Shown here: piece after piece, positions 22,268-41,718 of the stretch
Numbering within the stretch: the stretch's first letter is position 1
Layout of the letters: the number at the start of each line of letters is the position of its first letter
Source: Magnetococcales bacterium
GTDB taxonomy: Bacteria; Pseudomonadota; Magnetococcia; Magnetococcales; Magnetaquicoccaceae
Length of the DNA: 64,000 bases
Direction: 5' to 3'
Assembly (NCBI GenBank): GCA_011089965.1
Contig: JAANAU010000001.1
Span: 124,001-188,000, forward strand
Program-made: the position numbers and the translations under genes
Notes under the pieces: generated by a model
Database searches by the model: none
The model's input: the letters and a program-made list of their open reading frames with translations, nothing else
Told to the model about the DNA's origin: nothing

Positions 22268-25200
22268 ATGCAGCCAAAATTCGGCGTTCTCCTGATCCTT
22301 TTCCTGTTGGGGACAAGCTCTGTTGGTCTGGCAGCAGAAGCACCGCACCGTGCCAGGCTGATCGACCTGGATGGAACCGTCGAATTCAACCCGGAAGATG
22401 CCACCACCTGGCGGGAGGCCAAAGTAGGCCAGGAATTGCGCACCGGGGATCACATCCGCACCGGTCCCTTGAGCCGGGTCTCCCTGTTGATGGCCGATGA
22501 AAGCCTGATCAAACTGAAAGAGAGTACCGATCTGGTGATCGGCGAAGTGGCTCCCAGCAGCGTCTGGAGTCTGGAAGAGGCCAAGGCCGAACAGCCCCCT
22601 TCGATTCGATCCGAATTCCGGTTGCAAAAGGGCGGAGCGTGGTTTTTGAACAAAAATCGCGAAGTGGCGATCCAGTTCAAAACCCCGGCAGCCGAAATCG
22701 GCGTGCGCGGAACCGAACTGGTGGTCCAGTTGGATGGCCATGATGCCATGCAAGTCACCGCTTTGGAAGGAAGCGCCCAGATCCAGAATCCTCATGGAGA
22801 GCTGGTGATCACCAGCGGCGAGGAGGCCGTGACCCGCAGCGGAAGCGCCCCGGTCAAACAAAAAATGTTAACCACCGAAAACGCGGTACAATGGTTCATT
22901 GCCGTCCCTGCGCTGTTGGCCACCCGGAATCTGCAACAAAAAAACCAAACCGCCGCACAACAGGCCAGCTTGCAGGAGGTATGGCGTGATTTCCAAAGCG
23001 GTGCCCTGGTGCGCGCCAGCCAAACCCTGGCCGCCTTCACGGCGCAATACCCCCAGGATGCAGTGGGTTGGCAGTTGCGTGCCTTGACCGCCTTGGCCCT
23101 GGACCGTCGCGAAGAGATGGAAAGCGCAGCCCGTCAAGCCACCACGACCGGCGCGGATGCAGCCAATTCATGGATCATCCACGCGTATGTCCAACAGGCC
23201 CTGTTTCAGTTGGATGAGGCGGAACGGTCGATCCGACGGGCGTTGGCCATCGAAGCGGACAACATCACGGCCCGCGTGGCCCTGGCCCGTCTGCAATTCG
23301 GTGGTGGACGCACGCAGGAGGCGCTGACCACTCTGGACCAGGCGGCACCAGAGGTCATGAACACCCATGCCGAGGGAAACAATCTGCGCGGATTCATGCT
23401 TTTGGCTCTGCGCCAGGAAGCCGGGGCGCGGCAACACTTCCAGCATGCCATCCGCATCGACTCCACCCTGGCCGAACCCCATCTGGGCCTGGGCCTGATC
23501 CATATGCGGCAAGGAGAGACGGCGCGTGCCTTTGAAGAGATCACCACTGCCGTATTGCTCGATCCGACCCGCTCATTGATGCGCAGCTATTGGGCCAAGA
23601 TGCTCTATCAGGTCGAACGTCACCAAAAAGCCCTGGATGTCTTGCAAATGGCCCGCATGTTGGATCCCAGAGATCCCACACCCCATCTGTATGAAGCCAT
23701 GATCCTGCGGGATCTGAATCTGCCCACTCAGGCGATCCAGGCCATCAACCAGGCCATGGCCCGCAACGACCATCGCGGGGTGTACCGCTCCCGCTTCATG
23801 CTGGATGGCGATCTGGCGGTCAAAAATGTCGATCTGTCCAAACTCTACAACCAACTGGAACTGGACGCCTGGGCCAGAGGCAAGGCCATTGCCTCCACCC
23901 GTCAGGATTATACCAACTCTGCTGCACACCTGTTTTATGCCGGCTCCCTGACCGATGAAGAGGGACGCTCCTGGGCGCGCAATACCGAAACCCTGCTGGC
24001 GCGCCTGCTGCAACCTGCCAACCTCAATACTTTCAACTCATTCAATCAATACACGTCATTTGTCGAAAAACCCGGACTCCGGTTTGATCTCTCGGCCACA
24101 GTGGGCAATCACAAGACCTTGAACCACTATGCCGTGGTCTCCGGTGCCGTACCGCAACAGGATCTGGCATTCCAGGCCGGTCATTTCACCTCCAACACCG
24201 ATGGCTGGCGCTCCGGGCAAGCGGATCACACCCGCTCGCTGGTCGGCTATCTGAAGTGGGATGGCATCCAGGATGGCAGCGTGCTTGTGGCTGCCAGTTG
24301 TACCGGACTGGAACAATCCGGTGTCGGAGAACGTCGGCATGAGATCGACGCACCACCTGCACCCCGGGATGCGCTGACCAGCCGCTCCTATCGTTTGGAA
24401 GGAGGATATCATCACCATTTTGGTCCCGGTTCCGATCTGTTGCTCCATGCCGCACGCATCCGCACACCGCTGGAGATCCAAAACGTCTCCGGTCTGGATT
24501 GGGCGGATGTGGATGGAGTCAACCATCTCTATGACTGGCTGCACGGAATCGGACAAATCAGCGACTATCATCAAGTGCAGGGGGAGTATCTGTACAAATA
24601 CGGGGCGCATCAATGGTTGGCTGGAGCCATTCACTATGCTGGCACCATGGCCTACAACCACGATACCTGGCTTGAACTCTATGGACCGGTCGAATTCGGC
24701 ACCTACCCCTGGTCCACCCTGATGGCCGATCAAAAGCGCACTTTGGAAACCTTGTTTGTCCAGGACATCTTTCAGATCACGCCATCCTGGATCCTGGAAT
24801 CCGCCATTCATTTCGACTACATGCGTACCGGCAACCTGGAAAGTCAGACCACCTGGAGTCAATCCCAATGGAGTCCACGTCTGGGTCTGATCTGGAGTCC
24901 GGAAAAAGAACATACCGTACGACTGGCGGCCTTGCGCTCCCTGTTGCCTTTTTACAGCGACCGGCTGGATCCGGCGGACATTGCCGGGGTTCCGATCCAT
25001 CGCAATGGTGCTGCCGGTTCTGTGACCGACGAAGCGCAACGGGTGTGGGAATATGCCACGGATCAGGGGATCTGGTCCACCGGACTGTTTCGTGCCCATC
25101 GTGAATTGCCTGAGATCCACGCCACCGGCAACCGGTTGATCTGGGAAAGCGAAATTCAAGGGTTGGAGTTGCAGCACAACCGGCTGTTGGAGTGGGCACC

Positions 25201-25567
25201 CGGTTTGGGCCTGACGGCACGCTACCGGTTGCAACAGATTGAGGATCCCCGTGCCGAGTTGGCCAACACAGTCAACCGCGACGAACATCTGGCCGTGCTG
25301 GGTCTCAAATGGGTGGATGCCAGCGGCTGGTCTGCCAAGGCCAAAGAGAGCTGGCGTTGCACCGATTTTGCAGCCCAACGGGCCAGCGAGCAGATCTGGA
25401 TCACGGACCTGGAATTGAACTACGAATTTCCCAAGAAGTGGGGGGTGTGGCAACTCAAGGTCAACAATCTGTTTGACCAGCGGTTCAATTGGGTGACCGA
25501 TCCGTTTGTCTTGCAGGGTCGCAACCCGGCACGGGAGATCTTGATGACCATTGACATGACATTTTAA
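22268..25567 (+). CDS. FecR-TPR-outer membrane beta-barrel fusion protein
   Basis: A 1099-residue secreted protein. A signal peptide (MQPKFGVLLILFLLGTSSVG, cut after LAA) is followed by a FecR domain at about 30-200 (GTVEFNPEDATTWREAKVG, VRGTELVVQLDG). TPR-like helical repeats run from about 215 to 480 (for example DEAERSIRRALAIEADN, ARQHFQHAIRIDSTLAEPHLGLG). From about 590 the chain is an aromatic-rich alternating barrel. It ends in EILMTIDMTF with a terminal Phe, as in TonB-dependent receptors and other outer-membrane barrels. No TonB plug domain is seen before the barrel. The FecR part may bind peptidoglycan or a ligand; the transported substrate is unknown. A divergent 154-base region separates it from the sulfotransferase. 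Confidence 0.85.
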   Translation: MQPKFGVLLILFLLGTSSVGLAAEAPHRARLIDLDGTVEFNPEDATTWREAKVGQELRTGDHIRTGPLSRVSLLMADESLIKLKESTDLVIGEVAPSSVWSLEEAKAEQPPSIRSEFRLQKGGAWFLNKNREVAIQFKTPAAEIGVRGTELVVQLDGHDAMQVTALEGSAQIQNPHGELVITSGEEAVTRSGSAPVKQKMLTTENAVQWFIAVPALLATRNLQQKNQTAAQQASLQEVWRDFQSGALVRASQTLAAFTAQYPQDAVGWQLRALTALALDRREEMESAARQATTTGADAANSWIIHAYVQQALFQLDEAERSIRRALAIEADNITARVALARLQFGGGRTQEALTTLDQAAPEVMNTHAEGNNLRGFMLLALRQEAGARQHFQHAIRIDSTLAEPHLGLGLIHMRQGETARAFEEITTAVLLDPTRSLMRSYWAKMLYQVERHQKALDVLQMARMLDPRDPTPHLYEAMILRDLNLPTQAIQAINQAMARNDHRGVYRSRFMLDGDLAVKNVDLSKLYNQLELDAWARGKAIASTRQDYTNSAAHLFYAGSLTDEEGRSWARNTETLLARLLQPANLNTFNSFNQYTSFVEKPGLRFDLSATVGNHKTLNHYAVVSGAVPQQDLAFQAGHFTSNTDGWRSGQADHTRSLVGYLKWDGIQDGSVLVAASCTGLEQSGVGERRHEIDAPPAPRDALTSRSYRLEGGYHHHFGPGSDLLLHAARIRTPLEIQNVSGLDWADVDGVNHLYDWLHGIGQISDYHQVQGEYLYKYGAHQWLAGAIHYAGTMAYNHDTWLELYGPVEFGTYPWSTLMADQKRTLETLFVQDIFQITPSWILESAIHFDYMRTGNLESQTTWSQSQWSPRLGLIWSPEKEHTVRLAALRSLLPFYSDRLDPADIAGVPIHRNGAAGSVTDEAQRVWEYATDQGIWSTGLFRAHRELPEIHATGNRLIWESEIQGLELQHNRLLEWAPGLGLTARYRLQQIEDPRAELANTVNRDEHLAVLGLKWVDASGWSAKAKESWRCTDFAAQRASEQIWITDLELNYEFPKKWGVWQLKVNNLFDQRFNWVTDPFVLQGRNPAREILMTIDMTF

Positions 25568-25623: not shown

Positions 25624-27072
25624 ATGTTGCGATCATTTTTTCATCTCAAAAGAGCAAACGTCCTCTTCCGCAGAATCTTCGGGATTCCTGTTCATTTTTA
25701 TCTGTTTCTTGCAGTCTCGGTGGTTTTGGTACTATGGATTGTTTCGATTGAGCCTGCATTCTTCAGATCGCTGCTTTCCATGGTATCCATGGAAAATCTT
25801 ATCCATATCCCAACAGCATTGCCCAAGCCCCCAACAACAACACCCAATACAACCCGCACAGATCCATACCGGCATGTGCTTGAAATTCAGGAACTGATCG
25901 ATCTCCATCTGATTCCCAATCCAACAGAGCTGTCCCGGGAAACGGTCAAAGAGCGCAGCCAGGCGTTGGTCAACCATTTCAGAACTGTTCAACATGACCA
26001 CAGCATGCCAACAGAAGCGGAAATTGAAAAAACGATCAATAGATTCATCCAATCCATGGATAAATATGGTTATTACGAACCTCCAAGAGTCCACCCCTTT
26101 CCAAACAACGACAAATCAACTTATGGTATTGGAGTGCAACTTTTTGTCACAAACAATCAAATCATTCTGGTTCCGGCAAAAGGAGGCAGTGCCGATAAAG
26201 CCGGGTTATCGGATGCAGTCATACTCAAACGCATTGAAGATCAACCCGTATATGCTGATCCATCTGACAAGGCCATTGCCAGGTTGGATGAGGCATTGAA
26301 GAAAAAAACCATCAAGATAAGTATAAAGAGATTTCGCGCTCAGAATGAAGAACAGTTTAAATTGCAAAAGAAAACCATAAACAATCCTTCCACAGAAACA
26401 CGCACACTATCGAGCAATGGAAAGCAGATCCCTTATTTACGCATCTTGAATTTTTCGACAAAAACAACGCATCGAGAAATCACACAATATCTTGCAAACA
26501 CCTGGGAAAGCCCATTGCCAATCATCCTTGATTTGCGCTATTGCACCGGAGGGGATCTGTATGAATCATTGGATGCCGTATCACTCTTTGTCCAGACAGG
26601 CACCACTTTGATCTACACGGAAGATGTGCATGGCGGACAAACCGAGCATCAGGCTTTGTCTGGGGAGAAGAAATACTTGAATGAGCGCATCGTTCTGCTG
26701 GTTGGCCCCCTGACAGCCAGTTCCTGTGAGATTTTTGCTCAGGCCATGACCGCCGGTTCAGAACCGGGAAGAGTGCGTTTGATCGGTGGCAGAACCTATG
26801 GCAAATGTCTTGCGCAAAAGAGTTTTCCACTCTCCAATGCCGGACAGCTTGTCTTGACGAACCTAAAGGTGCTTTCTCATCCAGACAAGAGCTATTGCCC
26901 GCTTGCGCTCCAGGATCCGAAGTTGCACGTCACGGAAGAGGCCCTATGGGACATGCAAACCATCGAGGCATGCCTGCCATTCGCCCTCTCCTCCAATCCG
27001 CAACGTGGCCACGACTCTGAAGCGCATGCAAGGTGCAAACCCCGTGATCAGAACGGAATCATCACCCGATAG
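25624..27072 (+). CDS. S41 family C-terminal processing peptidase, membrane-anchored
   Basis: A 482-residue serine protease. TM at about 22-42, a PDZ-like domain at about 165-245 (YGIGVQLFVTNNQIILVPA, KAGLSDAVILKRIEDQPV), then the S41 catalytic domain. The nucleophile is probably Ser366 in GPLTASSCEIFAQAM, with Lys394 in RTYGKCLAQK. LDLRYCTGGDLYES is the family Asp-Leu-Arg turn. In the CtpA/Prc group the dyad cuts C-termini of envelope proteins. It follows the FecR-TPR-barrel gene by 56 bases and ends 70 bases before a converging gene. Its AT content is clearly higher than in the previous gene and matches the next 8 kb. Confidence 0.87.
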   Translation: MLRSFFHLKRANVLFRRIFGIPVHFYLFLAVSVVLVLWIVSIEPAFFRSLLSMVSMENLIHIPTALPKPPTTTPNTTRTDPYRHVLEIQELIDLHLIPNPTELSRETVKERSQALVNHFRTVQHDHSMPTEAEIEKTINRFIQSMDKYGYYEPPRVHPFPNNDKSTYGIGVQLFVTNNQIILVPAKGGSADKAGLSDAVILKRIEDQPVYADPSDKAIARLDEALKKKTIKISIKRFRAQNEEQFKLQKKTINNPSTETRTLSSNGKQIPYLRILNFSTKTTHREITQYLANTWESPLPIILDLRYCTGGDLYESLDAVSLFVQTGTTLIYTEDVHGGQTEHQALSGEKKYLNERIVLLVGPLTASSCEIFAQAMTAGSEPGRVRLIGGRTYGKCLAQKSFPLSNAGQLVLTNLKVLSHPDKSYCPLALQDPKLHVTEEALWDMQTIEACLPFALSSNPQRGHDSEAHARCKPRDQNGIITR

Positions 27073-27142
27073 ATCTCAAAGGCAGCTCCTTCAAATCCTT
27101 TCAGAACAATTGGATGCGCACTCTCATACATGACTTCTATTG

Positions 27143-29572
27143 TCATACGTCAGGTTCTTTCACCCCATCTACGACATTAGGGTCATGATTGTCCATCAAT
27201 TCAGGCCGAGGTGCCGCATTGGATATTTTCTGCCGATGCTTTGGCGTCTGGTTTGACGACTCGAACTGTTCCCAAGGGAATGTCGTACGCTCTTCCGGGT
27301 TTGAAGCCACCCTGGGAGACTTGCGGATCTCACTGTCGAGCTGATTGACCAGCGAATCAAAACTGTGCATGATTGCAGCCGGAGAAAAATTCAACTCATC
27401 TTGATTCTGAACATAGATAGTCTTCTGCAACTCCTCAATAGTGAACTCTCTTTCCTGATATTCCTGATTCAGTCTCTCCTGGGCAATCAAACGGATATTT
27501 TCCTGGGCTGCAAGCTGCCGATCATAACTTCCCAACAATTCATTACTTTTCTTCTTTTCAATCTCCAATGCCATACTGATTTTCATTTCTCTTACTGCCT
27601 TCATGGCCATGCGTTTTTTGCCTTCAATGTCCGCATCATCTTTTTCAACGACTGTCTGGAGTTTGCGCACATTGAAAATATTGACACTGACACCATAGAG
27701 CTGACATATATGATTACGAATTTTCATTGTCATCGAATTCTCAAATCTCTCTCGCATGATGATACCATCCATGATTTGCGCTTCCGTCATGGTTGACAGT
27801 ATCGTCATCAAATGGGTTTCGATATCTTTTCCAATCTTGTTCATGTCAAAGTTGCATTCCTTGAATCGATACCAGCCCTCCTCATCCACTCCATTCACAG
27901 AAAAATCTCCACAAATCGGCACGGGATAGCTCCCCTCCAAAGGAAAAACCTCAGCCTGGAATGAACCGTGAGATTTCAACAGATCAGTCAATTTTCTGGT
28001 CACTTCCGACTCTTCTTGACGCACCTTCACATCAAGATCAGTCGCTTTGAATTTTTCCGTCAATTTTGCTATGATCTCTTCCACCAGCTTTGATTTGATG
28101 GATTGTTTAGTTTTGTGATCAATCACATCAAAACTCATATAATATTGCTGAGGATCAATATCGCGCATAAACCCATCTATTGTCTCTCTTGTCAGGTTTG
28201 CAATATTGCGCACAATGACACCAGAACCCTCTATCTCCTGTTTTAATAGAGGCTTAACTGTAGATAAATCAATAAGCTTTCCTGTTATCAACACCCCTAA
28301 CCTTGCCGTAACCTGTGGTGATGCTGTTTTGCACTCCACATCATCCAATTCAAAACGAAATCCCTCCAACAGCTTTTCCGGACCGGTCTCGGTTTTGGTC
28401 ACCAATGGATCGATTTTGTATCCGATCTTTTCACTCCACTCACTCATCTTTTTTTTGATGTCTGTGGCAATGGTGGAAAAACCGGTCAAAACATCCTCAT
28501 AGGTTTTTTTGTACAACTCTTGTTTAACAGCATAATCAATTTTTTCATTGAACCAACTGCGCAGATCGGGAGCGCCAGCCAATCTGTAACGTGCATAATC
28601 CACCAGATGGGCTTGCGCCTGGTTGATCACCTCCACCGGTTTTGGAAATTCAATCAGTTCAACACTGACTTTATGCTCCAAAGAATCATAAAACTCCTTA
28701 ACCGGACGTTCTTCAATCAACCGCAACCGGAAATCCAGGAGGTTCCGTCCTCTTCTCCGGTTCAAAACAGTGTTCAAATGATCCTGAGTTTCTCTGGACA
28801 GTTCACCGTTTCTGACCTTGGTAAAAAACTCCTGTGGCGAATAACTCTTCAGGAGGTAATCCTGCAATGCAGCCTTCAGCAAATCCTCATTGGATAAGGA
28901 AGAGCGACAACTCTCGATCCGTGCCAGGTCGATTTTTTCAGGTATCCAATCACTGGAAGCAGACAAGGAAAAAAACTGTTCTTCATGGAAATCACGAATT
29001 TTGACTGGTATCTTGGAAATATTGTAGGTTTCTCTTTTTTGCAGTTGGCTGTCATGGGGATAGATCAACCAGATTTGCATCTCCAACCCGGCCTGTTCGC
29101 GGGCCAAACTGGCGCACCTCTGGGCAATCTGGTCACGCCTGACAGAAAAATTTTCCAGGAAATCCTTCTCATTGCCAGACAGAGTCTCTTTCAGCCACCT
29201 TCTCAACAGGCGATCCACTTCCTGTCCGGGAGTCGATGGACTTTCCAACTGCCTGAGAAATTTCTCCTCCTGACCTTCGATCACATAAGCCTGGTAGCGC
29301 AACATCAGCCCAAGCTGCAATCCCGATGCAGGATCCTGCACCGGGTTCTCCATGCCCGTGCGTGTAGCCGTATAGCTGAAACCCGTGGGAAATCTTATCT
29401 GGTAATGGAGCAAATGCTCTTTCTTCCAAGGGTCACCCGAAAAGAGACCTGGCGTAAAGATTTTCTTCTCCCGTTTATCAAAATGAATCACTTTCCAACC
29501 GGAGATTTCCGCCTCGTTCACCGGTCTGAAAAGATATTGAAACGTCGAATGAAACGGGTGCTCGTTGCTCAT
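27143..29572 (-). CDS. Large SPFH/band-7-like coiled-coil protein (tentative)
   Basis: About 809 residues from ATG 29572, preceded by GGAG; in-frame ATG 29584 and earlier codons are alternatives. I do not recognise a named family. The central and C-terminal parts look SPFH-like. They have two alternating strand/helix segments, the second ending MKIRNHICQLYGVSVNIFN. A long charged helix (EGKKRMAMKAVREMKISMAL, QENIRLIAQERLNQEYQ) follows, as in flotillin-type proteins. A similar short segment near residue 185 (REQAGLEMQIWLIYPHD) may be another copy. There is no N-terminal membrane segment, so it would be soluble or peripheral. It is transcribed after the large helical protein gene. AT content is high and the function is unknown. 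Confidence 0.75.
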   Translation of the reverse strand: MSNEHPFHSTFQYLFRPVNEAEISGWKVIHFDKREKKIFTPGLFSGDPWKKEHLLHYQIRFPTGFSYTATRTGMENPVQDPASGLQLGLMLRYQAYVIEGQEEKFLRQLESPSTPGQEVDRLLRRWLKETLSGNEKDFLENFSVRRDQIAQRCASLAREQAGLEMQIWLIYPHDSQLQKRETYNISKIPVKIRDFHEEQFFSLSASSDWIPEKIDLARIESCRSSLSNEDLLKAALQDYLLKSYSPQEFFTKVRNGELSRETQDHLNTVLNRRRGRNLLDFRLRLIEERPVKEFYDSLEHKVSVELIEFPKPVEVINQAQAHLVDYARYRLAGAPDLRSWFNEKIDYAVKQELYKKTYEDVLTGFSTIATDIKKKMSEWSEKIGYKIDPLVTKTETGPEKLLEGFRFELDDVECKTASPQVTARLGVLITGKLIDLSTVKPLLKQEIEGSGVIVRNIANLTRETIDGFMRDIDPQQYYMSFDVIDHKTKQSIKSKLVEEIIAKLTEKFKATDLDVKVRQEESEVTRKLTDLLKSHGSFQAEVFPLEGSYPVPICGDFSVNGVDEEGWYRFKECNFDMNKIGKDIETHLMTILSTMTEAQIMDGIIMRERFENSMTMKIRNHICQLYGVSVNIFNVRKLQTVVEKDDADIEGKKRMAMKAVREMKISMALEIEKKKSNELLGSYDRQLAAQENIRLIAQERLNQEYQEREFTIEELQKTIYVQNQDELNFSPAAIMHSFDSLVNQLDSEIRKSPRVASNPEERTTFPWEQFESSNQTPKHRQKISNAAPRPELMDNHDPNVVDGVKEPDV

Positions 29573-29624
29573 GTATGGCTCCATACCACAATGTTGTGAA
29601 TAATCGGTCAATACATACAAGTTT

Positions 29625-32486
29625 TTAACCAGCCATGTTGCCTTCTTTAAGCCGATCAATCAATCGGCGCATGGATTGGATGCGAAAATGAATATCTTTT
29701 TTATCCTCACCCGATGATATTCCAGCATGATATGTATTAAGAATATTCAATATCACACGGGCCATATCGAGTGGCCAGTTGCGTAACTCTCTGCTCTCAT
29801 CTTCTCTGACCATCTTTGCCAGATTGGCCACGAAACGATAAAAAAGCTGCAATTCTTGCGGACGTTTCGGTTGGGTTAACGATGCAGGCGTCTCCAGAAG
29901 GCTGACATGCCAATGCGATAGAATCAGCATGATCCAACAACGGAACATCTGCTGCATATCCTGTTTAATTTGATTATGAAGAAGCAGAAAAATCTGAATA
30001 TGAACCGTTCTGTTGATCACAGACGCATTGCTTATATAAAGCGTCAGTAAAATCTCCACCATCTCGCTTGTAATCTGAACCTCTGCACTATCACTTTTTG
30101 CCAGATACGCCATGATTTCATTAATATCTGTTACCAATTGATTATTAAAATCCGCTTCCAGTAATTGAGCCATTTCTCGTCGATTGCATAATGCCGCCAG
30201 GAACTCGATGGACACGGCAATGAAATCAGAAAAGGATATCTGATTGAATATGACAGATCCAGCCATCAACCAGGATGGCAATCCAGACAATCTGGCGCCA
30301 TCTTCTCCACATTGTTTATGATTGAAAATGGATAATGCCAATGATCTTTTCTGTGCTGAAGAGGGCTGATCCTGGAAAAACTCCTGGATCGCCTGCCGAA
30401 ACATCCATTCAGAGGCAAAAGTCTCCATCATGGATGGCTTTGACGATCTGTGACTGTTTGCAGGAATCCTGCTGCAAATTGCATTGATGTTTTCAATAAA
30501 ATCATTAGGATGCCTGCTGACATATCTTGCCAGATCTCCTATTGCCTTTTCTTTCAGCGCATCATCATGTCCAACCTCGACCAGATGACAATACCACTTG
30601 ACCGGATCAAACTCTTTGGATGAACCACTGTATTGCAACAGTTTCAGCATCACATCTTGATCCAACGGATTGTTTGCCAGCGTGTGCAGCAGTCGATTTG
30701 TAATGGATTTCAGCCTGTCAACTTGAGTCGTGAATTCCAACAATTTTACAATTCGATATATTCTGTGATACTTCCCGGAACTGGCATCTGTTCGCGCGGG
30801 TTCAATCAAAGAGGAGAGCCTTTTAAGAACCTCCTCATCCGGCACACTTTCTGCCCACTCTCTGAACAACCGGGTGATGTTGCCAACAACTCTTTCTGAA
30901 TCACCACTATCCTGTACATGACTGGCCCATATTGTTTCAAAAGCCTGCTGTGAGAAATTGGGCCTTTCTGTTTCAAAAAAGTCTGAGAGTTCCTGGAAAA
31001 TCCAAGAGCTTGCAAAACATACATATTTGACTTCAGACTCTTTTTTGTAATCAAGCTTGCACATCATGAAAAAAGAGTCCGGATTCTTTCTCCATTCTTC
31101 GAGACAGGAAACTGTTTTGGACGTTGAGCGCACTCCTTTCTCTTTCTTCTTCTTTTTCCTGGAGGTGCTGTTTTCATCCTCAGGAGTGGCAACCTGTACC
31201 GTGACATCGGTCAACAAGCGTGCCACTTGAAGATTGAAATCCTCCAAAGTCAGATTGGTAAATTTGGCGGCGACAAAACAAATCGCCCGCATGACCACCT
31301 GTTCCGGTGTTTCCGCACTCCTCAGTTGCTGCACCAGCCTCTCCATGGCATCACTCTGGGAAGCCGATTCCCCTTTGGGACGACTCTCTTTAGGTGCCTT
31401 GTCCGCAGAGACCCAGCTCTGGACTTTTTGTGCAAAAGTTTTATTGTTGATCAAATCCACCACAAATGCATAAAACTGATCATCTTTGTTTGCCCAGTTT
31501 GCTTGACGCCACTGTTCAACATGGGAGTGTATATTATGATCAATACCTTCTCTTGTCAGCAAATAGGACAACCAATCGACGTTCTGAATACTTCGATTAA
31601 GCTGTGTGTGCGTTCTGCGATACGATCTGTTGACAATTGCCGGAGAACCATAACAGACAACATGCATATTGGAATGGATCAGATCGGTAACCAATGCCGT
31701 CTGAAAAGTCAGATCATCCAGGCGCAAATTGGTCAAAAAGCCTGGATCCGACTCCAAATCGATGATCAGCGCCTTTCTGGTTGAATTGGCCAACTTGGAG
31801 CATTTCGTAAAATCTTGCAAGGTCATATTTGTTTTTGTAATCCTGGCAAAATGGGCAATAAAAGCCGACTGGTAACCCAAACGTTGCAACAGGCAAAAAG
31901 CGCTGTCTCTCAGACACTCCTGATCCGGTCCTGCCAGAATCATCAAACGAGTGGTCATGAGAACCTGCTCCCAATCTCCCAAAGCGTCTGGCTGCCAACC
32001 AACAAAAGAACGTGTCAAACTCACAGAGGACAAACCTGTTTCCCAGGACTCCACATCCCGGGCCGAAAAAGAATCGGCGACCCGCTCATCTGCCCCTTCA
32101 AAGCCTCTGAAAAAATTGGTTATCTCGATTTTCTTTCTCATTTTTCCCTGATTGATCGTGCTTCTTTTTCCGGCTGTGGCAACCCGACCAGGATTGGATC
32201 CTCCATTATGGATGGAGGCGGTGGAAGATCCTGTTTTCTGCCCTTCCTTCTCTTTCGGCTTCTCGCCAGCCATCTCTGCACCTTTCTCAGAGGGTGGTTC
32301 ATCCCCTGCTGTCGAAGAGGTCTGATCTTCCGGTTGTGCAGAGAAGACCTCTGTCCCGGGATCCGGTTCCTGATGTGAAACAGTTGGTTCCAGGGGTGCC
32401 GATTCAGGTGGGGGTGTTTCGTTGTTCAGCGACTCTGCAACTGTTGATTGACCTGCATCGGATTCGGACATCACCATCATCTCCAT
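29625..32486 (-). CDS. Large protein with degenerate NTPase-like segment and long helical C-terminus
   Basis: About 953 residues, of unknown family. Residues 1-115 are acidic, Pro/Ser-rich and likely disordered. Residues about 180-250 resemble a P-loop NTPase core: a strand LMILAGPDQECLRDSA where the GKT lysine should be, then KALIIDLESD as a Walker-B-like strand. The catalytic Lys is missing, so this is at best a degenerate NTPase. A lysine patch KKKKKEK lies at about 444-450. The rest (about 480-950) is helical, suggesting HEAT/ARM-like repeats. Several Met codons occur at the start (MEMMVMS). It is divergent from the pseudokinase gene and upstream of the SPFH-like gene. Function unknown. 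Confidence 0.75.
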   Translation of the reverse strand: MEMMVMSESDAGQSTVAESLNNETPPPESAPLEPTVSHQEPDPGTEVFSAQPEDQTSSTAGDEPPSEKGAEMAGEKPKEKEGQKTGSSTASIHNGGSNPGRVATAGKRSTINQGKMRKKIEITNFFRGFEGADERVADSFSARDVESWETGLSSVSLTRSFVGWQPDALGDWEQVLMTTRLMILAGPDQECLRDSAFCLLQRLGYQSAFIAHFARITKTNMTLQDFTKCSKLANSTRKALIIDLESDPGFLTNLRLDDLTFQTALVTDLIHSNMHVVCYGSPAIVNRSYRRTHTQLNRSIQNVDWLSYLLTREGIDHNIHSHVEQWRQANWANKDDQFYAFVVDLINNKTFAQKVQSWVSADKAPKESRPKGESASQSDAMERLVQQLRSAETPEQVVMRAICFVAAKFTNLTLEDFNLQVARLLTDVTVQVATPEDENSTSRKKKKKEKGVRSTSKTVSCLEEWRKNPDSFFMMCKLDYKKESEVKYVCFASSWIFQELSDFFETERPNFSQQAFETIWASHVQDSGDSERVVGNITRLFREWAESVPDEEVLKRLSSLIEPARTDASSGKYHRIYRIVKLLEFTTQVDRLKSITNRLLHTLANNPLDQDVMLKLLQYSGSSKEFDPVKWYCHLVEVGHDDALKEKAIGDLARYVSRHPNDFIENINAICSRIPANSHRSSKPSMMETFASEWMFRQAIQEFFQDQPSSAQKRSLALSIFNHKQCGEDGARLSGLPSWLMAGSVIFNQISFSDFIAVSIEFLAALCNRREMAQLLEADFNNQLVTDINEIMAYLAKSDSAEVQITSEMVEILLTLYISNASVINRTVHIQIFLLLHNQIKQDMQQMFRCWIMLILSHWHVSLLETPASLTQPKRPQELQLFYRFVANLAKMVREDESRELRNWPLDMARVILNILNTYHAGISSGEDKKDIHFRIQSMRRLIDRLKEGNMAG

Positions 32487-32625
32487 TGTGTGGCAATAAG
32501 CAACATTCTAAAGTTACATGATACAATTTGCATCAATAATGAGATTATCGTAATTCATCAAAATAATATCAAGGCAGAAATTATATGCTTGCGATCCTAT
32601 TCAAGCTGCATGATAATGTCAAGTC
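32487..32625. promoter_or_regulatory. Divergent AT-rich control region of the 27-35 kb island
   Basis: A non-coding 139-base region between the two divergent transcripts of the island. It is strongly AT-rich with many short A/T runs. No single promoter stands out, but both transcripts must start here, so shared control is plausible. Confidence 0.5.
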
Positions 32626-34161
32626 ATGGGAATCGCCCTGGACAGTTTGGATCAAAACAAACTCATTTCATTGGAATACCACGTCATGATATGCAGAGAC
32701 TCTTCAGGACAAATTATTGAAATTATTACAGATCCTGACAAGCCCCAAACCGGTGTGTTTCCAATTGCCGGACGTGATGACCGAAGGGCAACCCTCCTGC
32801 CTGCACTTTCCACAGCTCAGGAGGCAGTGCTGCATGATTGGCATGCACGCATGCAAAACATGCCGGATGATGTGGATGGCGTGATCTTTGTCGGACCACA
32901 AAGCCTGCTGTACGATCCGGAAACGAACCAACTGTCAGGGTATATTATCAATACCTATTGGGATACATACCCGCTTGCAGATTGCATCGTCCATCCGGAA
33001 TCGGCAACAATCCCCCTGAGCCTGGAAGAACGCTACGCAGCCGCCTGGAAAATGACCCGGGCCGTGCAATATCTGCATGCACAAGGCTACGCAACCACAC
33101 ATATTTCATTAAATATGTTATCTATTGATGCCAATAAAAATAATATTTACTGGCTTGAGTTTCATGATTTACAACAAAATTCTTCGGTCCCACCATCCGA
33201 TCCCGACAATCCGGAATCCAACGATCTCTACAATCTGGCCACCACCCTGTTTCAACTCTTGATGCACGGCTTCCATCCCTTTCAGGGTCAATGGAATTTC
33301 CGCAAAGGTCCAGAGCCGCCACGATCCACCCTGCAACTGTGTGGTCTGCTGCCTTATCACCCGCGTAACCACCAACGCATCCAACCCCCTACGGATGCGC
33401 CCGACTACTCTACCCTGGCAATTCCGGTTCAAAAATTGTTGAACATCGCCTTGACCCTGGGTGGACGCCACCCAGACCAGTGTCCAACCACTCAGACATG
33501 GCTGGATACCCTGCATGAAGCCATTCGTCACCCTTATCGCAAAACAGTATTTTTGAAACTGTCACGCAGACCAACCCTTCCAGCCCTTCCAAAAGGGTGC
33601 CCGCTTGATGAAAACTATTTACCATATAAAACTTATGGAATTGCTGCACTGTTGATTGCAATACTCGTAATTATATTTAAAGTGTATTATACGAACAGCG
33701 ATGAAAAAATAATGGTAACGGCACAAATCCGGGATGCCCTGCAAATATCTACTGAGGTTGGATCAAGAATCAATCTGGTATCCTCAGCAAAGGACAAACT
33801 GATGATCTCTGAGCAGTTGGTAAGCCAGAATTCTACACGATATGTGCAATTGAGAGATCAAGATATGGTCACACTCAACGAGCAAAAAATAAAACTGGAA
33901 AAAGAATTGAAAAAATATCGTGTGGTGTTGCAACAGATCCATACAAAAAAATCCGATCTGTGGCAACAGGCCATCCAATCGATTCGTCAAGAAGCCCACG
34001 AACCTCCTGTGCAGGCACGCTTGAATCTGTTGGAAAAACATTTGAAGGAATTCGGCAGGAATATGGAAGAGATCCACTGGCTGGATCACACCCAAAAAGA
34101 TTTCAACAAGATCATGGAAGAGATCAGTTCCCAGGATGCTCACAATACGAAAAAACCCTGA
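32626..34161 (+). CDS. Membrane pseudokinase with coiled-coil tail (YegI-like kinase fold)
   Basis: A 511-residue protein. Residues about 20-310 follow the kinase-like layout of the YegI/TerY-associated family. QSLLYDPETNQLSGYIINTY corresponds to strands beta3-5. The helical lobe includes NLATTLFQLLMHGFHPFQG and a C-terminal RHPDQCPTTQTWLDTL, typical of that family. Catalytic residues are lost: the HRD-type loop reads HISLNMLSID (159-168), the DFG position is LEFHD (177-181) and no beta3 lysine is seen. A TM at about 335-356 is followed by a ~150-residue coiled coil. It is probably a signalling scaffold rather than a kinase. No clear ribosome-binding site. It sits upstream of two lipoprotein genes. 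Confidence 0.72.
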   Translation: MGIALDSLDQNKLISLEYHVMICRDSSGQIIEIITDPDKPQTGVFPIAGRDDRRATLLPALSTAQEAVLHDWHARMQNMPDDVDGVIFVGPQSLLYDPETNQLSGYIINTYWDTYPLADCIVHPESATIPLSLEERYAAAWKMTRAVQYLHAQGYATTHISLNMLSIDANKNNIYWLEFHDLQQNSSVPPSDPDNPESNDLYNLATTLFQLLMHGFHPFQGQWNFRKGPEPPRSTLQLCGLLPYHPRNHQRIQPPTDAPDYSTLAIPVQKLLNIALTLGGRHPDQCPTTQTWLDTLHEAIRHPYRKTVFLKLSRRPTLPALPKGCPLDENYLPYKTYGIAALLIAILVIIFKVYYTNSDEKIMVTAQIRDALQISTEVGSRINLVSSAKDKLMISEQLVSQNSTRYVQLRDQDMVTLNEQKIKLEKELKKYRVVLQQIHTKKSDLWQQAIQSIRQEAHEPPVQARLNLLEKHLKEFGRNMEEIHWLDHTQKDFNKIMEEISSQDAHNTKKP

Positions 34162-34211
34162 TTATGTATAAATATATCATACACATACCCAACCCTTGAG
34201 GAGATCATGCC

Positions 34212-34895
34212 ATGTTGATGAAACGATGCACCATCCCACTCTTGACGCTCTCTCTGCTGGCCGGAGGTTGCGCATCGACCAATACCACTCCTGGTCAACC
34301 CGCTTCCCAGCAATCCTCCAACACAGATACCACCACCATGCAGGGCGCTGGAGCTGGTGCGGTCATCGGTGGGGTCATCGGAGCCATACTCGGAAAAGAA
34401 TCAGGGGCAGCCATCGGTGCTCTGGCAGGAGCAGCCATTGGCGGAGTCCTGGGCAATCTGATCGGAGACATGCAAGAACAACGTCTGGCACGGGAAGACA
34501 ATATCGAAAAGCAAATTATGCAAACTCGTGAAGTCATTACCGCTGCCAATCAATACAATCAAGAGTCGCGCGCCGAGCTGGATCGCATCCTGGCCGAATC
34601 CAAACGCCTCCTAACCAACAAAAAGAACGGAAATCTGAAAAAAGATGATATTGAGAAGCACCTTGCATTCCTGGATCAAAAACAAAAGTCAAGCAACGAC
34701 GCTGTAACCTCCCTCAAAACCGAATACAATGCCAAAAAAGAGTCATTGGATTATCACAAAAGCCAACAACAGCCCGCACAAAACAATCCACAGATCGCCG
34801 AAATGGAAAAACAGTTGGACTCTCTCCAAGCCGCCATCCAGGAAACCAGTCAGAGCGACACCCAATATGCACATCTGAAAAGCATCTGGCGCTGA
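34212..34895 (+). CDS. Glycine-zipper lipoprotein with coiled coil
   Basis: A 227-residue lipoprotein. Signal peptide and lipobox are LSLLAGGC (Cys20), slightly atypical with Ala at -3. Residues about 45-90 form a glycine zipper (AGAGAVIGGVIGAILGKESG, AAIGALAGAAIGGVLGNLIG) like YMGG/glycine-zipper outer-membrane proteins, able to insert in or span a membrane. Residues about 90-225 are Lys/Glu/Gln-rich coiled coil. GAGGAG sits 8 bases before ATG 34212. It lies 50 bases after the pseudokinase gene and is likely co-transcribed with it. Confidence 0.85.
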   Translation: MLMKRCTIPLLTLSLLAGGCASTNTTPGQPASQQSSNTDTTTMQGAGAGAVIGGVIGAILGKESGAAIGALAGAAIGGVLGNLIGDMQEQRLAREDNIEKQIMQTREVITAANQYNQESRAELDRILAESKRLLTNKKNGNLKKDDIEKHLAFLDQKQKSSNDAVTSLKTEYNAKKESLDYHKSQQQPAQNNPQIAEMEKQLDSLQAAIQETSQSDTQYAHLKSIWR

Positions 34896-34910
34896 TTTGA
34901 AAGGAGTGGC

Positions 34911-35474
34911 ATGAACATTTTTCAAAGTTGCATGCGCATCATGATGTGTCTGATGCTGCTGTGGCCATTGTACGGCTGCTCCATGACACCGGATCCCAAC
35001 AACGCACCTGCCCAGGGAGGATTGCTGGAAGGGATCATGGGAGAGTTACGCGGAGACTACGACCTGCGCGAACGGTTACGCCGGGAGCAACTCGGAGCCT
35101 TGCAACGCGAATCGGCAGAAATGGCAGAAAGAAACAGAAAGCTGGATGAAGAACGTCAGAGCAGGCAGGCCACACTCCGAAATCTGGAGCAGGAAGTCAG
35201 CCAATTGCAAGGCAGCATTTCTGCACTCTCCGGCAAGCTGCAACGACTGAAAAACACAACCAGACAAAGCGAACAGGAGCTTCTGGAAACCAAAGATCTG
35301 ATCCACCAATTGGAAACCCAGATCCATCAGCAGAAAAAAAACAGCCAGGAAGCTTTGGACAATGCCTCTCAGGAAGAAAAAAGGCGTTTCCTTGAGCTTC
35401 AGGAACAACTGGCACGTACCGAACGGGAGTTCTTATTGCTCCGAAAACGCCAGGAGATCGATCTCAAAAACTGA
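34911..35474 (+). CDS. Coiled-coil lipoprotein
   Basis: A 187-residue lipoprotein with signal peptide MNIFQSCMRIMMCLMLLWPL and lipobox LYGC (Cys23). From about residue 50 onward it is one long Glu/Gln/Arg-rich coiled coil (for example LRNLEQEVSQLQGSISALSG) with no other domain. It is 15 bases after the glycine-zipper lipoprotein, AGGAG precedes the ATG, and both are likely one operon with the pseudokinase. The two lipoproteins and the pseudokinase tail may pair through coiled coils. This is inferred. Confidence 0.85.
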   Translation: MNIFQSCMRIMMCLMLLWPLYGCSMTPDPNNAPAQGGLLEGIMGELRGDYDLRERLRREQLGALQRESAEMAERNRKLDEERQSRQATLRNLEQEVSQLQGSISALSGKLQRLKNTTRQSEQELLETKDLIHQLETQIHQQKKNSQEALDNASQEEKRRFLELQEQLARTEREFLLLRKRQEIDLKN

Positions 35475-35565: not shown

Positions 35566-35722
35566 CATGCAGACAAGAAGAAAAGAATTGATTCCTGGTC
35601 GTGTTCCCAATGGAGTGGTCATTAAGCAGTCCCGATGTGACTTGAAGGTGTGAAGGCCATGTTACGCATGGTGGCATCCCTGCCAAGATGCCTCCTGCCG
35701 CGAATCTGTCGGAGGTCAATAA

Positions 35723-35752
35723 TTGTCTGGCGTCCCAATACCGGTCTATACT
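35723..35752 (+). promoter_or_regulatory. Candidate sigma-70 promoter of the A/V-ATPase operon
   Basis: TTGTCT (35723-35728), an 18-base spacer, then TATACT (35747-35752), placing a start near 35759 and 37 bases upstream of the first ATPase gene. The hexamers are good matches in an otherwise gene-free stretch. Confidence 0.5.
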
Positions 35753-35795
35753 ACACTCCATGATTCATGGAGACCAGAACCAGCCGGAGGGGTGC

Positions 35796-36143
35796 ATGAG
35801 TCAGACACCTGAGAGTTTCAATCAAGGGGAGTGGCTGGACCAGGCCATGATGCAGGCCATCCAGGCCGATCAGTTGGCAGCCCTCTCCATCTCCGAAAGC
35901 CGCAAACAGGCTGAAGAGATCCTGCTGAACGCACGCCATCAGGCAGCCGAAATCGAAGCGCGTCTGGACCGACGCATGGCGGTTTTGCAAAAAAGCCGCG
36001 CCAAATCCCTGAAACGACACCTGGAAACCATCAAACGCCATCAACAGCGCGCTGCACCCTTTCAGCTCGAACCACCCGCCAACCTGGATCCACCGGGGGC
36101 AGCCAGACAACTCGCGGCCTGGCTGACCGGGGCCGATGGATAG
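35796..36143 (+). CDS. A/V-type ATPase peripheral stalk subunit (G/H-like)
   Basis: A 115-residue helical protein. ATG 35796 has GGAGG 5 bases upstream. Residues about 28-80 form a charged helix with the A-Ala/Glu pattern of stalk subunits (SRKQAEEILLNARHQAAEIE). The C-terminus is Pro-rich and ends near the next gene. It is the first gene of the ATPase operon, in the place where archaeal and Thermus operons carry a G/H stalk subunit. Assignment rests on position, length and coiled coil rather than on motifs. The stalk would link the A3B3 head to subunit I. Confidence 0.65.
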   Translation: MSQTPESFNQGEWLDQAMMQAIQADQLAALSISESRKQAEEILLNARHQAAEIEARLDRRMAVLQKSRAKSLKRHLETIKRHQQRAAPFQLEPPANLDPPGAARQLAAWLTGADG

Positions 36144-36152
36144 CCAACAACC

Positions 36153-36836
36153 ATGGGCACCCCTGCTTTTGCCACGCTTCAGGCACGCCTCCAGGCCCGT
36201 CACAGCGCACGCCTCGATCTGAATCAATGGAACCGGCTGTCGGCAATCACGGCCCTGGAACCATTTCTGACCCAGGCGCGCTCCACACCCCTGGGTCTCT
36301 GGTTGCAGGGGGTGGATCCCCATGGGGATGTTCATCAGCTGGAAGTTACCCTGCGCGATGTTTTTCGCAAACATGTGGCTCTCATCGCTGGCTGGAGCCT
36401 GCCATCCTGGCACCCTGCCATCCACTGGGTGGCGACCTGGCCTGATCTGGCCATTGCCCGACACTACCGGCGATTCGGTGCCACCCACCCCTGGATCGCC
36501 CGCATGGAGGGGTTGGAACTGTTGGAAACCTCCCCTTCCGGTCACGACCTGTTAACCTGGTGGCTGAACCGCTGGCGCACGCTCTGGCCCACCCCGCCAA
36601 CCCGCCATCCCCACCTGGAAAAGTTGATCCAACTGGCACAAGCCTGCCAGGAACAGGCCGATGACCCCTGGTCAGAGTGGTCCCGATTGCGCACCTCCCT
36701 TGAGTTGCTCTTTCGACGCCAGGCCATGGAACCGGGTGCATTGTTCATTCATCTGTGGCTGACCGGCCTGGAGATCTATCGCCTGCGGGGGGAGTTGAGC
36801 CGCCGACTGCTCTTTCCTCCGGAGCCGTGCCCATGA
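36153..36836 (+). CDS. A/V-type ATPase subunit C-like protein (tentative)
   Basis: A 227-residue helical protein that starts 9 bases after the stalk gene and whose stop overlaps the subunit I start as ATGA. Sequence motifs are weak. It is Trp/Leu/Arg-rich and ends with an IYRLRGELSRRLLFPP-like segment, comparable to the C-terminal region of AC39/d-type subunits. The operon otherwise lacks subunit C, so position suggests it is the adaptor between rotor and stalk. Divergence leaves this uncertain. Confidence 0.55.
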   Translation: MGTPAFATLQARLQARHSARLDLNQWNRLSAITALEPFLTQARSTPLGLWLQGVDPHGDVHQLEVTLRDVFRKHVALIAGWSLPSWHPAIHWVATWPDLAIARHYRRFGATHPWIARMEGLELLETSPSGHDLLTWWLNRWRTLWPTPPTRHPHLEKLIQLAQACQEQADDPWSEWSRLRTSLELLFRRQAMEPGALFIHLWLTGLEIYRLRGELSRRLLFPPEPCP

Positions 36837-38656
36837 TGGCCCGCCCTCAACCTGCACGCTGGATGCGTCTTCTGGCTGTCGAGGAGGATCTGCCTGCGGC
36901 TCTGATCACTCTGGCCCACCACGCCCCGGTGGAACCGGAACCTCTGTCAGGTGAAGACAGAACGGTTTTGACCCCGGAAATCTCTCACTGCCTGCAACGC
37001 TTCGAGGCTTTGGCTCACGCCTGGCACACCTGGTGGCCCACCGATCTGCCCGACACCCCGGAGGTATTGGCCCCCCATCTGCCGCCGGTGGAGCTGCTGA
37101 ACCAGGCATTGACTGCTCTCGAAGCATGGCAGTTGGTCAGCGAACCCCTGATCCGCCAGGAGCAGGCTGGTCGCACCCATCTGGCCGAGTTGGAGCTGCT
37201 CCTGGAACTGGCGCAAGCTCTCGACACCCCCTCACTGGATCTCGGACACATCCTTCACCCCCCCTCCTCAACCCAGACTTTGCGGACAGCCCTTTTTGTG
37301 CTTCCTCTGAACGCAGAACTCACGACCTGGTCACCTGACGACACTTTGTTGCGACCTGTCTCCGGCCACCAGCACCGCTTTCTGTTGGTGGTAACCACTG
37401 AAAAGATCTGGGATGCGCTTGTCACCCACATTGCCAACCTGGAAGGTCGTCCACTGCTCTGGCCCGCCGGATTATCGGGCACCGGCGACCAGCTCCAGGC
37501 CGCCATCCAGACAGACATCACCGCATGTCAGGCTGACAACATGCGCATTGCAGAGCTTCTGCACCGGTTGGGGGAAGAGCATCAGGTCGCCCGCTGGATC
37601 CGCGCCGTACATCAACGGCAATGGTATTTTCAGGCGATCCGTCAGATCCGCACTGGTCACACCCTGGCCCAACTCGGTGGCTGGGTCGCCCCGGAGTGTC
37701 AGGCTGCCACCTTGAATCACCATCTCCAGAAAGGGGGCATACGCGCCTTGGCCACCCTCTCCGACCACGGACCGGGAGATCCACCGTTGCTGCTGGTCAA
37801 CCCCTGGTGGGCGCGCCCCTTTGAACTTTTTGCCCGCCTGCTCGGCATGCCCAACCGTTACGAAGTTGATCCCAGTCGCCTGCTGGCCCTGGTGGCTCCG
37901 CTTCTGTTCGGCTACATGTTCGGCGATGTCGGCCAGGGGGCTGTACTGGTTGCCATCGGTTTTCGCCTGCGCCGCCACTTCCAGGCAGCCTGGCTCCTGA
38001 TCACAGGCGGTTTGTCCGCCATGTTCTTTGGTCTGCTCTTTGGCAGCCTTTTCTGTTCCGAATCCATTTTGCCAGCCTTGTGGCTCCATCCCACCAGTCA
38101 CCCCCTGGATCTGCTCCTGCTGCCGCTGCTGTTCGGCATGGGCCTGATCCTGACCGGATTGGGATTTCAGGGAGTCGGGGCCTGGTGGCGCGGTCAAGGG
38201 CGTCACTGGCTGCATCATGACGGAGGTGTCATCCTCTTGTATCTTGGTACCATACTGACACTGATCACACCAGATGTTGGTCTGATTCTGGCACTGGCAG
38301 GCATCCTGTTGTTCATGTTTGGAAACGGCTGGCATGCTCCGCGCGCGCTGCCGGGACGGCTGGCCCATCTGCTGGAAACCCTGTTGCAACTCGGCGTCAA
38401 CACCTTCTCCTTTGCCCGCGTCGGGGCGTTTGCATTGGCCCATGCCGGACTGGGCCAGGCCGTGGTCACCCTGGCTGACCTGAGCGGGGGTGGTCTGCCC
38501 GGCCTGATGGTGATGGTTGTCGGCAACCTGCTGATCCTGACCCTGGAGGGGTTGGTGGTTTCGGTCCAGACCACCCGTTTGATTCTGTTTGAGTTTTTTG
38601 TACGTTTCCTGGCTGGAGACGGACGCCCTTTCCGTCCCCTGCCACCCCCGGAATAA
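36833..38656 (+). CDS. atpI: A/V-type ATPase membrane subunit I (a-type)
   Basis: A 607-residue subunit. ATG 36833 overlaps the previous stop and has GGAG 8 bases upstream; the region before is not part of the family. The N-terminal ~330 residues are cytoplasmic, with two Glu/Leu-rich helical hairpins. The C-terminal half holds about seven or eight TM helices, including PLLFGYMFGDVGQGAVL (the family GxMxGDxGxG signature), GLLFGSLF and NTFSFARVGAFALAHAGLGQ. It forms the ion half-channels against the K ring. The compact length is usual for bacterial subunit I. Confidence 0.93.
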   Translation: MMARPQPARWMRLLAVEEDLPAALITLAHHAPVEPEPLSGEDRTVLTPEISHCLQRFEALAHAWHTWWPTDLPDTPEVLAPHLPPVELLNQALTALEAWQLVSEPLIRQEQAGRTHLAELELLLELAQALDTPSLDLGHILHPPSSTQTLRTALFVLPLNAELTTWSPDDTLLRPVSGHQHRFLLVVTTEKIWDALVTHIANLEGRPLLWPAGLSGTGDQLQAAIQTDITACQADNMRIAELLHRLGEEHQVARWIRAVHQRQWYFQAIRQIRTGHTLAQLGGWVAPECQAATLNHHLQKGGIRALATLSDHGPGDPPLLLVNPWWARPFELFARLLGMPNRYEVDPSRLLALVAPLLFGYMFGDVGQGAVLVAIGFRLRRHFQAAWLLITGGLSAMFFGLLFGSLFCSESILPALWLHPTSHPLDLLLLPLLFGMGLILTGLGFQGVGAWWRGQGRHWLHHDGGVILLYLGTILTLITPDVGLILALAGILLFMFGNGWHAPRALPGRLAHLLETLLQLGVNTFSFARVGAFALAHAGLGQAVVTLADLSGGGLPGLMVMVVGNLLILTLEGLVVSVQTTRLILFEFFVRFLAGDGRPFRPLPPPE

Positions 38657-38694
38657 CCCATGACATCTTAGAATCCAACACAAAGGAGCGGCCC

Positions 38695-39039
38695 ATGTCG
38701 CCTCGCACCAAGATTGCACTTGCTTTGACCCTGTTCAGCGCCGTCATGGCCATCGGAGCCAGCATGGCTTTCTTTGCCTCCCCGGCCATGGCGACCCCTC
38801 CAGCCTCTGGAGGCGCAACCCTGGATCCGGGCATGGGCTTTCTGGCTGCTGCTTTGGCCACAGGTCTCTCCTCCATTGCTGCCGGTTTTGCCGTTGCCCA
38901 TGTTGGCAGCGCGGCCATCGGTGCCATCACGGAAAAACCGGAACTTTTGGGCCGGATGTTGATTCTGGTCGGTCTGGCCGAAGGGATTGCCATTTATGGT
39001 CTGATCATCTCGATCCTCATTCTGAATCGTCTGGGCTGA
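38695..39039 (+). CDS. atpK: A/V-type ATPase proteolipid subunit K
   Basis: A 114-residue rotor-ring subunit. The mature part is one two-helix hairpin: AAALATGLSSIAAGFAVAHV, then GRMLILVGLAEGIAIYGLI with Glu96 as the ion-binding carboxylate. No Gln partner lies in the first helix, as Na+-type rings would have, so proton coupling is more likely. A ~40-residue N-terminal extension resembles a signal peptide (FFASPAMA-TPP) and may be cleaved. AGGAG precedes the ATG. The stop overlaps subunit F by one base (TGATG). Confidence 0.93.
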   Translation: MSPRTKIALALTLFSAVMAIGASMAFFASPAMATPPASGGATLDPGMGFLAAALATGLSSIAAGFAVAHVGSAAIGAITEKPELLGRMLILVGLAEGIAIYGLIISILILNRLG

Positions 39040-39341
39040 TGTCTGCGTTCGTCTTTATCGGCGATGAAGTGAGTGCAGCGGGCTGGCGTCTGACCGGCAT
39101 GAAGGTGATCACCCCTGAGCCTGGCCAGGAGGCAACAACGGTCACAGCCATTCTGGCAGAGGCCACCACCGGGTTGGTATTGCTTTCGGCAGGTTGTGCC
39201 AGCCGGTTGCCTGTTGGGTTGCTCGACCGCTTTCTGGCATCGCTGACTCCTGCCACCTGGGTGGTTCCAGAGGTTCGCGGTCTGACGCCCCCCCCGGATC
39301 TGACGCTCAAGGTGCGTGCGCGTCTGGGGATGCAACCATGA
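39039..39341 (+). CDS. atpF: A/V-type ATPase subunit F
   Basis: A 100-residue central-stalk subunit. It starts SAFVFIGDEVSAAGWRLTGM, the usual F N-terminus, and contains GLVLLSAGCASRL, where homologues have a conserved ILIT/D-type strand. It sits inside the rotor shaft with subunit D. Start TGATG overlaps K and the stop overlaps E as ATGA. Confidence 0.85.
   Translation: MSAFVFIGDEVSAAGWRLTGMKVITPEPGQEATTVTAILAEATTGLVLLSAGCASRLPVGLLDRFLASLTPATWVVPEVRGLTPPPDLTLKVRARLGMQP

Positions 39342-39951: not shown

Positions 39952-39955
<4 letters not shown>
39338..39955 (+). CDS. atpE: A/V-type ATPase subunit E
   Basis: A 205-residue peripheral stalk subunit. ATG 39338 overlaps the F stop as ATGA. 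The N-terminal ~100 residues form a Gln/Arg/Ala-rich helix (ARQEAAALIANAHQQARQRM), and the C-terminal globular part binds the A3B3 head. Weak conservation is normal for this subunit. The stop overlaps the subunit A start as ATGA. Confidence 0.85.

Positions 39956-41714
<1,759 letters not shown>

Positions 41715-41718
<4 letters not shown>

Follow-up and report, generated by a model that had tools for sequence, protein, structure and literature searches.

Published conflict systems repeatedly include kinases and STAND proteins that are inactive (PMC7159879), and in bacterial amyloid signalling a short motif pairs the N-terminus of an NLR with a neighbouring effector (PMC8086366). The RNA vault brings together an SPFH-containing cage protein, the major vault protein (MVP), which has an SPFH shoulder, and TEP1, which combines an NTPase with a TIR-like NADase (PMC13174449). 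Here, we compare with these systems an AT-rich gene cassette located at positions 25624-35474 of a 64,000-nucleotide stretch of DNA from a Magnetococcales bacterium (assembly GCA_011089965.1, contig JAANAU010000001.1, positions 124,001 to 188,000). The whole stretch is referred to as the window, and its own numbering is used throughout. The cassette encodes an SPFH-like protein, a degenerate NTPase-like protein, a membrane pseudokinase, two lipoproteins and an S41 protease. It is a real, conserved multi-gene set and apparently an undescribed one: a search of libraries and papers found no named system with exactly these parts, which would have spoken against the candidate undescribed system put forward in an earlier note on this DNA. 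In our best reading, to which we give about an even chance, it is a trans-envelope conflict (immune-like) system that consists of six genes and moves horizontally.

Composition and recurrence of the cassette

The earlier note had described five AT-rich open reading frames (ORFs) forming two operons that diverge from a common control region, and all five are present in this arrangement. The SPFH-like protein (27143-29572) and the NTPase-like protein (29625-32486) are encoded on the minus strand, while the pseudokinase (32626-34161), a glycine-zipper lipoprotein (34212-34895) and a coiled-coil lipoprotein (34911-35474) are encoded on the plus strand. The same note had attributed a similar AT-rich character to the S41 protease gene (25624-27072, plus strand), which also belongs to the set, as its counterpart in another genome lies next to the gene of the coiled-coil lipoprotein. 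The block as a whole has 46.0% GC, compared to 57.4% for the remainder of the window. The reading frame of the SPFH-like gene extends open to 29659; relatives of the protein align from Met30, which places the start at 29572, in agreement with the earlier assignment. The divergent intergenic region (32487-32625, 139 bases) contains sigma-70-like matches on both strands, a scan result that is not evidence by itself.

Among 48 genomes of the class, the SPFH-like gene is found in four and the pseudokinase in three. Outside the window genome (G000), the relatives are found at the loci L008, L009 and L010 (in genomes G035, G044 and G047, respectively). L008 and L009, which belong to another family of the order, share the five genes and their divergent order with the window, i.e., coiled-coil lipoprotein, glycine-zipper lipoprotein, pseudokinase, divergent region, NTPase-like protein and SPFH protein. 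The identity to the window copies is 25-26% for the NTPase-like protein, 31% for the SPFH protein, 29% for the pseudokinase, 35-36% for the glycine-zipper lipoprotein and 28-29% for the coiled-coil lipoprotein. At L010, only the NTPase-like and SPFH genes of the set are found, together with an adjoining TIR gene, and the envelope genes are absent. The reading frames are intact in these four distant copies.

The position of the S41 gene varies. In L009, where the protease is 32% identical to that of the window, the gene adjoins that of the coiled-coil lipoprotein, while in the window it is found at the opposite end of the block, convergent with the SPFH gene. In G035, the S41 gene begins at a contig end (L055), and the same 46-base repeat (a CTGGGGGCAATCCCCCAG hairpin with a T-rich tail) is found at two contig ends of this genome (L008 1-46 and L055 6-51), flanking the lipoprotein gene on one contig and the S41 gene on the other. 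This observation is compatible with, but does not prove, the same order as in L009.

A pattern-based scan with the SPFH alignment, covering one genome per species (84,980 species), recovered exactly the three known relatives; such a scan can miss distant ones. Samples drawn evenly from the phylum (398 genomes) yielded, with either the SPFH or the NTPase-like alignment, nothing beyond the known Magnetococcales. There was no match in viral contigs searched with the SPFH alignment or in plasmids searched with the SPFH and NTPase-like proteins, and no homologues were found in genome contigs searched with the NTPase-like protein of the window alone. The check proposed in the earlier note, recurrence of the set in other genomes, gives a positive result for the whole five-gene set in two genomes of another family, which supports the earlier interpretation; the recurrence is confined to Magnetococcales rather than extending to unrelated phyla, and L010 has the cytoplasmic pair alone. 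In all four settings the GC content of the cassette is 45-47%, compared to 53-57% for its neighbours. Together with the patchy spread (4/48), this difference fits a mobile defence-type cassette, and the pattern of GC content and distribution is that of a cassette moving within the lineage.

Component proteins and flanking genes

Three protein identifications made earlier, i.e., an SPFH-like protein, a degraded NTPase segment and a pseudokinase, hold up on the grounds given in this section. SPFH proteins usually, but not universally, have an N-terminal hydrophobic membrane anchor, and the known members contain, to our knowledge, one or two SPFH units. The putative SPFH-like scaffold protein of the cassette has homologues in three other genomes. 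An AlphaFold2 model built from four sequences (predicted local distance difference test, pLDDT, 65) repeats a strand-strand-helices-strand order five times, i.e., predicts five tandem SPFH-like units (about 29371-27662, minus strand; residues ~97-199, 209-315, 324-422, 434-548 and 580-666), followed by a long helix of ~62 residues (27637-27452). The top Foldseek matches are almost all SPFH proteins (stomatin, erlin, flotillin, HflK/C and prohibitin), with major vault protein found lower and with HflKC-FtsH and QmcA-YbbJ among the matches. These are single-domain alignments (TMt 0.5-0.66) with a best E-value (E) of 0.0017, and Pfam Band_7 is just under its cut-off in the homologues. Membership of the SPFH/Band 7 family is indicated by the consistency of these matches rather than by any single significant score. 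Comparison of the five units with hhalign gave no sequence similarity (probabilities under 6%), so the count of five rests on predicted secondary structure, with the first unit being the weakest. No transmembrane segment was found in the protein (best 19-residue hydropathy 1.28), and a PDB sequence search with it gave no match. Its C-terminus (27143-27450) contains a short motif (ER/ELK.FPW) that is common to the window, L008 and L009; the surrounding tail is disordered, and the motif is a possible docking site.

The product of the adjacent gene, a candidate degenerate STAND/NLR-like protein, also has homologues in three other genomes. In the AlphaFold2 model (pLDDT 49), a disordered N-terminal tail is followed by an alpha/beta NTPase-like segment, a winged helix-turn-helix (wHTH)-like strand-helix-hairpin and an alpha-helical superhelix. 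The best fold match is Avs3, which is not significant (E 0.0056), and lower matches include a STAND-TPR protein and AVAST5 among many helical repeats. From the alignment of homologues and a motif scan, the Walker A position is degenerate (31902-31949, minus strand; RLMILAGPDQECLRDS): the GxxxxGK[ST] motif is absent from 4/4 homologues, and L008 and L009 have SSSDQGRS at this site. A Walker-B-like strand (KALIID, 31758-31775, minus strand) is found in all four. With Walker A absent in all four, this is at most an inactive STAND-like protein, an assignment to which the model and the fold match point weakly. Glucocorticoid-receptor matches obtained in a PDB sequence search with this protein were judged to be due to chance.

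A TIR-domain gene adjoins the block in 3/3 relatives, in two different placements. In L008 and L009, a TIR_2 gene is convergent with the SPFH gene at a distance of 43 bases (Pfam TIR_2 E 4e-30 for L008). In L010, a TIR-like gene lies upstream of the NTPase-like gene at a distance of 13 bases, and its product scores just under the cut-off for TIR_2 (E 8e-6) and 5e-4 for ThsB_TIR. The W..xE glutamate of TIR NADases is present in the TIR protein of every relative (SEWTKVERGAAM in L008 and L009, HWINFEVGYAW in L010). Judged by domain and glutamate, these proteins would be TIR NADase-type effectors. The stretch that precedes the TIR domain resembles the disordered N-terminal tail of the same locus's NTPase-like protein, where the window copy has a Gly/Asn/Gln-containing stretch (SIHNGG...STINQG; 32127-32237, minus strand). 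In L009 this match (TQTINSGDYCNNIQ/TQDINSGDYSRNTQ) comprises 14 residues with a score of 51, reached in 0/5000 shuffles, and in L010 (NIIQRGQATAPGSVVIQ/NIIQKGTATGDRPQIFQ) 28 residues with a score of 45, reached in 19/5000 shuffles. The L010 motif does not match that of L008 and L009, and because the latter two loci are close relatives their cases are not independent. The sharing of motifs in L009 and L010 resembles the pairing seen in NLR-effector amyloid signalling. Two further observations concern the surroundings of TIR genes. A pentapeptide-repeat gene adjoins the TIR gene in L008 (8968-9675) and L009 (17995-18726); its host-like GC content (56% in L009) indicates that it is probably part of the flank rather than of the cassette. 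In the window genome, a TIR protein followed by a stretch read as CHAT-like is found at a contig end (L051, G000:C19, about 6900-8054).

The membrane pseudokinase is composed of a cytoplasmic kinase fold (residues ~21-304), one transmembrane segment (33637-33693; residues 338-356), identified from hydropathy, and a periplasmic coiled-coil tail. An hhalign alignment of 275 columns (E 2e-18) links it to the kinase encoded in a Granulicella vWA-PP2C-kinase (TerY-P type) operon, and it matches PDB kinases at E 6e-4. These similarities suggest that it descends from TerY-P-type kinases. Both catalytic aspartates are replaced: in the window protein the HRD-Asp is His and the DFG-Asp is Glu, and in the relatives these residues are Glu and Gly. 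The glycine-zipper lipoprotein (Pfam Gly-zipper_Omp, 5.5e-9) also has a coiled-coil tail, while the coiled-coil lipoprotein has a lipobox-like N-terminus and shares a conserved QGGLL.G..GE..GDYDLRE with its relatives; both lipoproteins have their relatives in the corresponding place. The S41 protein is a CtpA/Prc-like serine protease (Pfam Peptidase_S41, 5e-21; NCBIfam prc, 2e-34) with an N-terminal membrane anchor (residues ~24-46) and periplasmic PDZ-like and protease parts. Its catalytic residues, Ser366 (TASSCE, 26719-26721) and Lys394 (YGKC, 26803-26805), are present and conserved in both aligned copies. From signal and transmembrane segments we infer a cytoplasmic location for the kinase-like domain, the NTPase-like protein, the SPFH protein and TIR, and a periplasmic one for the coiled coils, the lipoproteins and the S41 protease.

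The block is flanked on one side by a single ORF (22268-25567) in which a FecR-like domain, TPR repeats and a TonB-dependent-receptor-like beta-barrel are joined; relatives covering the full length of this ORF are found in some genomes of the genus only, and another genome contains a C-terminal scrap. On the other side is a V-type ATPase operon (35688-43106; I subunit, c subunit, A and B subunits), which is kept across the genus without the cassette beside it. In an "empty site" comparison, the two genes that flank the cassette were found on different contigs in relatives.

Proposed mechanism and rival explanations

Judged from gene content and linkage, a defence role of the cassette is likely. 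The earlier suggestion of a possibly defence-like complex, which stays conditional, gains support from the neighbouring TIR genes and from the N-terminal motifs matched within loci. In the best reading, both lipoproteins, together with the pseudokinase's coiled-coil tail, would span the periplasm and sense a breach of the envelope (phage entry or another attack), while the S41 protease would cut or license this periplasmic arm. The pseudokinase would relay the change to the cytoplasm by conformation, not phosphorylation; with both nucleotide enzymes dead, signalling would go by conformation, cleavage and assembly. The multi-SPFH protein may form a ring or cage that concentrates the inactive STAND-like protein, whose exposed N-terminal motif would recruit and polymerise a TIR effector bearing the same motif, and this effector would then degrade NAD+ or make a cyclic ADP-ribose (cADPR)-type signal, stopping growth. 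In the window copy, the effector may be unlinked, replaced or lost. The anatomy and the gene linkage are the part of this reading that is observed; the assembly and the defence role we infer from them.

Several observations weigh against such a system. No TIR gene is linked to the window copy, and the single TIR_2 protein of the window genome is unlinked and does not have a matching N-terminus. The N-terminal match in L008 is marginal (score 32, 219/5000 shuffles). STAND membership rests on a model of low pLDDT and the non-significant match to Avs3, and PADLOC recognises no part of the cassette except for the TIR domains of the relatives. In addition, the presence in L010 of the cytoplasmic pair and a TIR gene without envelope genes indicates that the two halves need not be coupled.

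The same observation on L010, together with the anatomy of two divergent operons, would suit two separate systems that share one control region, i.e., a defence unit in the cytoplasm (STAND/SPFH/TIR) and an envelope operon unrelated to it (pseudokinase, two lipoproteins and S41). We regard this explanation as unlikely: the pseudokinase family is found only in SPFH-carrying genomes and always adjoining (3/3), identities of 26-29% point to long co-inheritance, and the S41 gene stays with the set even though its side changes. A possible, if doubtful, alternative is an envelope-organising or quality-control system with a flotillin/HflKC-like microdomain scaffold, where the S41 protease would trim envelope proteins, the lipoproteins and the pseudokinase would tether the scaffold across the periplasm, and the TIR genes would be chance neighbours in an island. 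The absence of a TIR gene at the window copy and the intact S41 catalytic residues are consistent with such a role, as is the fact that most SPFH proteins are scaffolds that organise membranes or regulate proteases, such as those of the HflKC-FtsH and QmcA-YbbJ fold matches. However, the SPFH protein here is without a membrane segment, a TIR gene adjoins 3/4 copies in two placements and with locus-specific motif matches, and housekeeping scaffolds are seldom so patchily distributed or so AT-rich. The inactive kinase and NTPase and the missing linked effector in the window could also be read as signs of a decaying genomic-island remnant without function, but intact frames in four distant copies, the retained S41 residues and the conserved lipoprotein motifs make this highly improbable.

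If the trans-envelope conflict reading is right, a periplasm-spanning sensor would be coupled directly to a cytoplasmic NLR-like scaffold and a TIR output; such a coupling is not described for known TIR and STAND antiphage systems in the papers searched. A more specific form of it, offered only as a tentative idea, is a soluble cage of the multi-SPFH protein on which an inactive NLR is displayed and which is wired via the pseudokinase/lipoprotein arm to the outer membrane, such that a breach would lead to amyloid-like recruitment of a TIR NADase, in functional parallel to the vault with TEP1. The conflict reading, if right, would also supply a compact model for SPFH cages in immunity, in the form of a bacterial SPFH protein built of five tandem units, with a bearing on the role newly proposed for vault/TEP1 in NAD+ depletion (PMC13174449).

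Comparison with known systems

Weak PADLOC scores for Cas11e, LeoBC, JetC and similar were attributed to coiled-coil or composition noise. As regards Thoeris, no ThsA partner with SIR2/SLOG or Macro was found among the ORFs listed for L008-L010 or the PADLOC matches of the set. The entire kinase domain of the pseudokinase aligns with that of the TerY-P triad; in contrast to the latter, the catalytic residues are lost, a transmembrane segment and a periplasmic coiled coil are added, and there is no PP2C or vWA partner. The predicted SPFH fold and the long helix that follows the units are shared with the SPFH family (stomatin, prohibitin, flotillin, erlin, HflK/C and major vault protein), from which the cassette protein differs in its five predicted tandem units and in having no membrane segment.

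Avs/AVAST and inactive-STAND ternary systems (Kaur et al. 2020, PMC7159879) are similar to the cassette in having a large protein with NTPase-like, wHTH-like and helical superhelix parts, which in the cassette protein are predicted at low confidence, as well as inactive NTPase and kinase parts and TIR effectors. The cassette differs from these in that there is no Walker A and no MoxR-vWA pair, and those systems do not include the SPFH scaffold and putative trans-envelope arm of the cassette. In BASS NLR-effector pairs (PMC8086366), a locus-specific, short N-terminal motif of the NLR is likewise matched in the neighbouring effector; there, the effector is a Bell-domain protein with a C-terminal motif, whereas in the relatives of the cassette it is a TIR protein with an N-terminal motif. 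The vault with TEP1 resembles the cassette in the partnership of an SPFH cage protein with an NTPase/TIR-like NADase, which is an analogy only. In the vault, NTPase and TIR-like NADase reside in one protein (TEP1), while in the relatives of the cassette TIR is encoded by a separate gene. Compared with known systems, the cassette would function much as an NLR-TIR signalling unit does, with some of its parts inactive.
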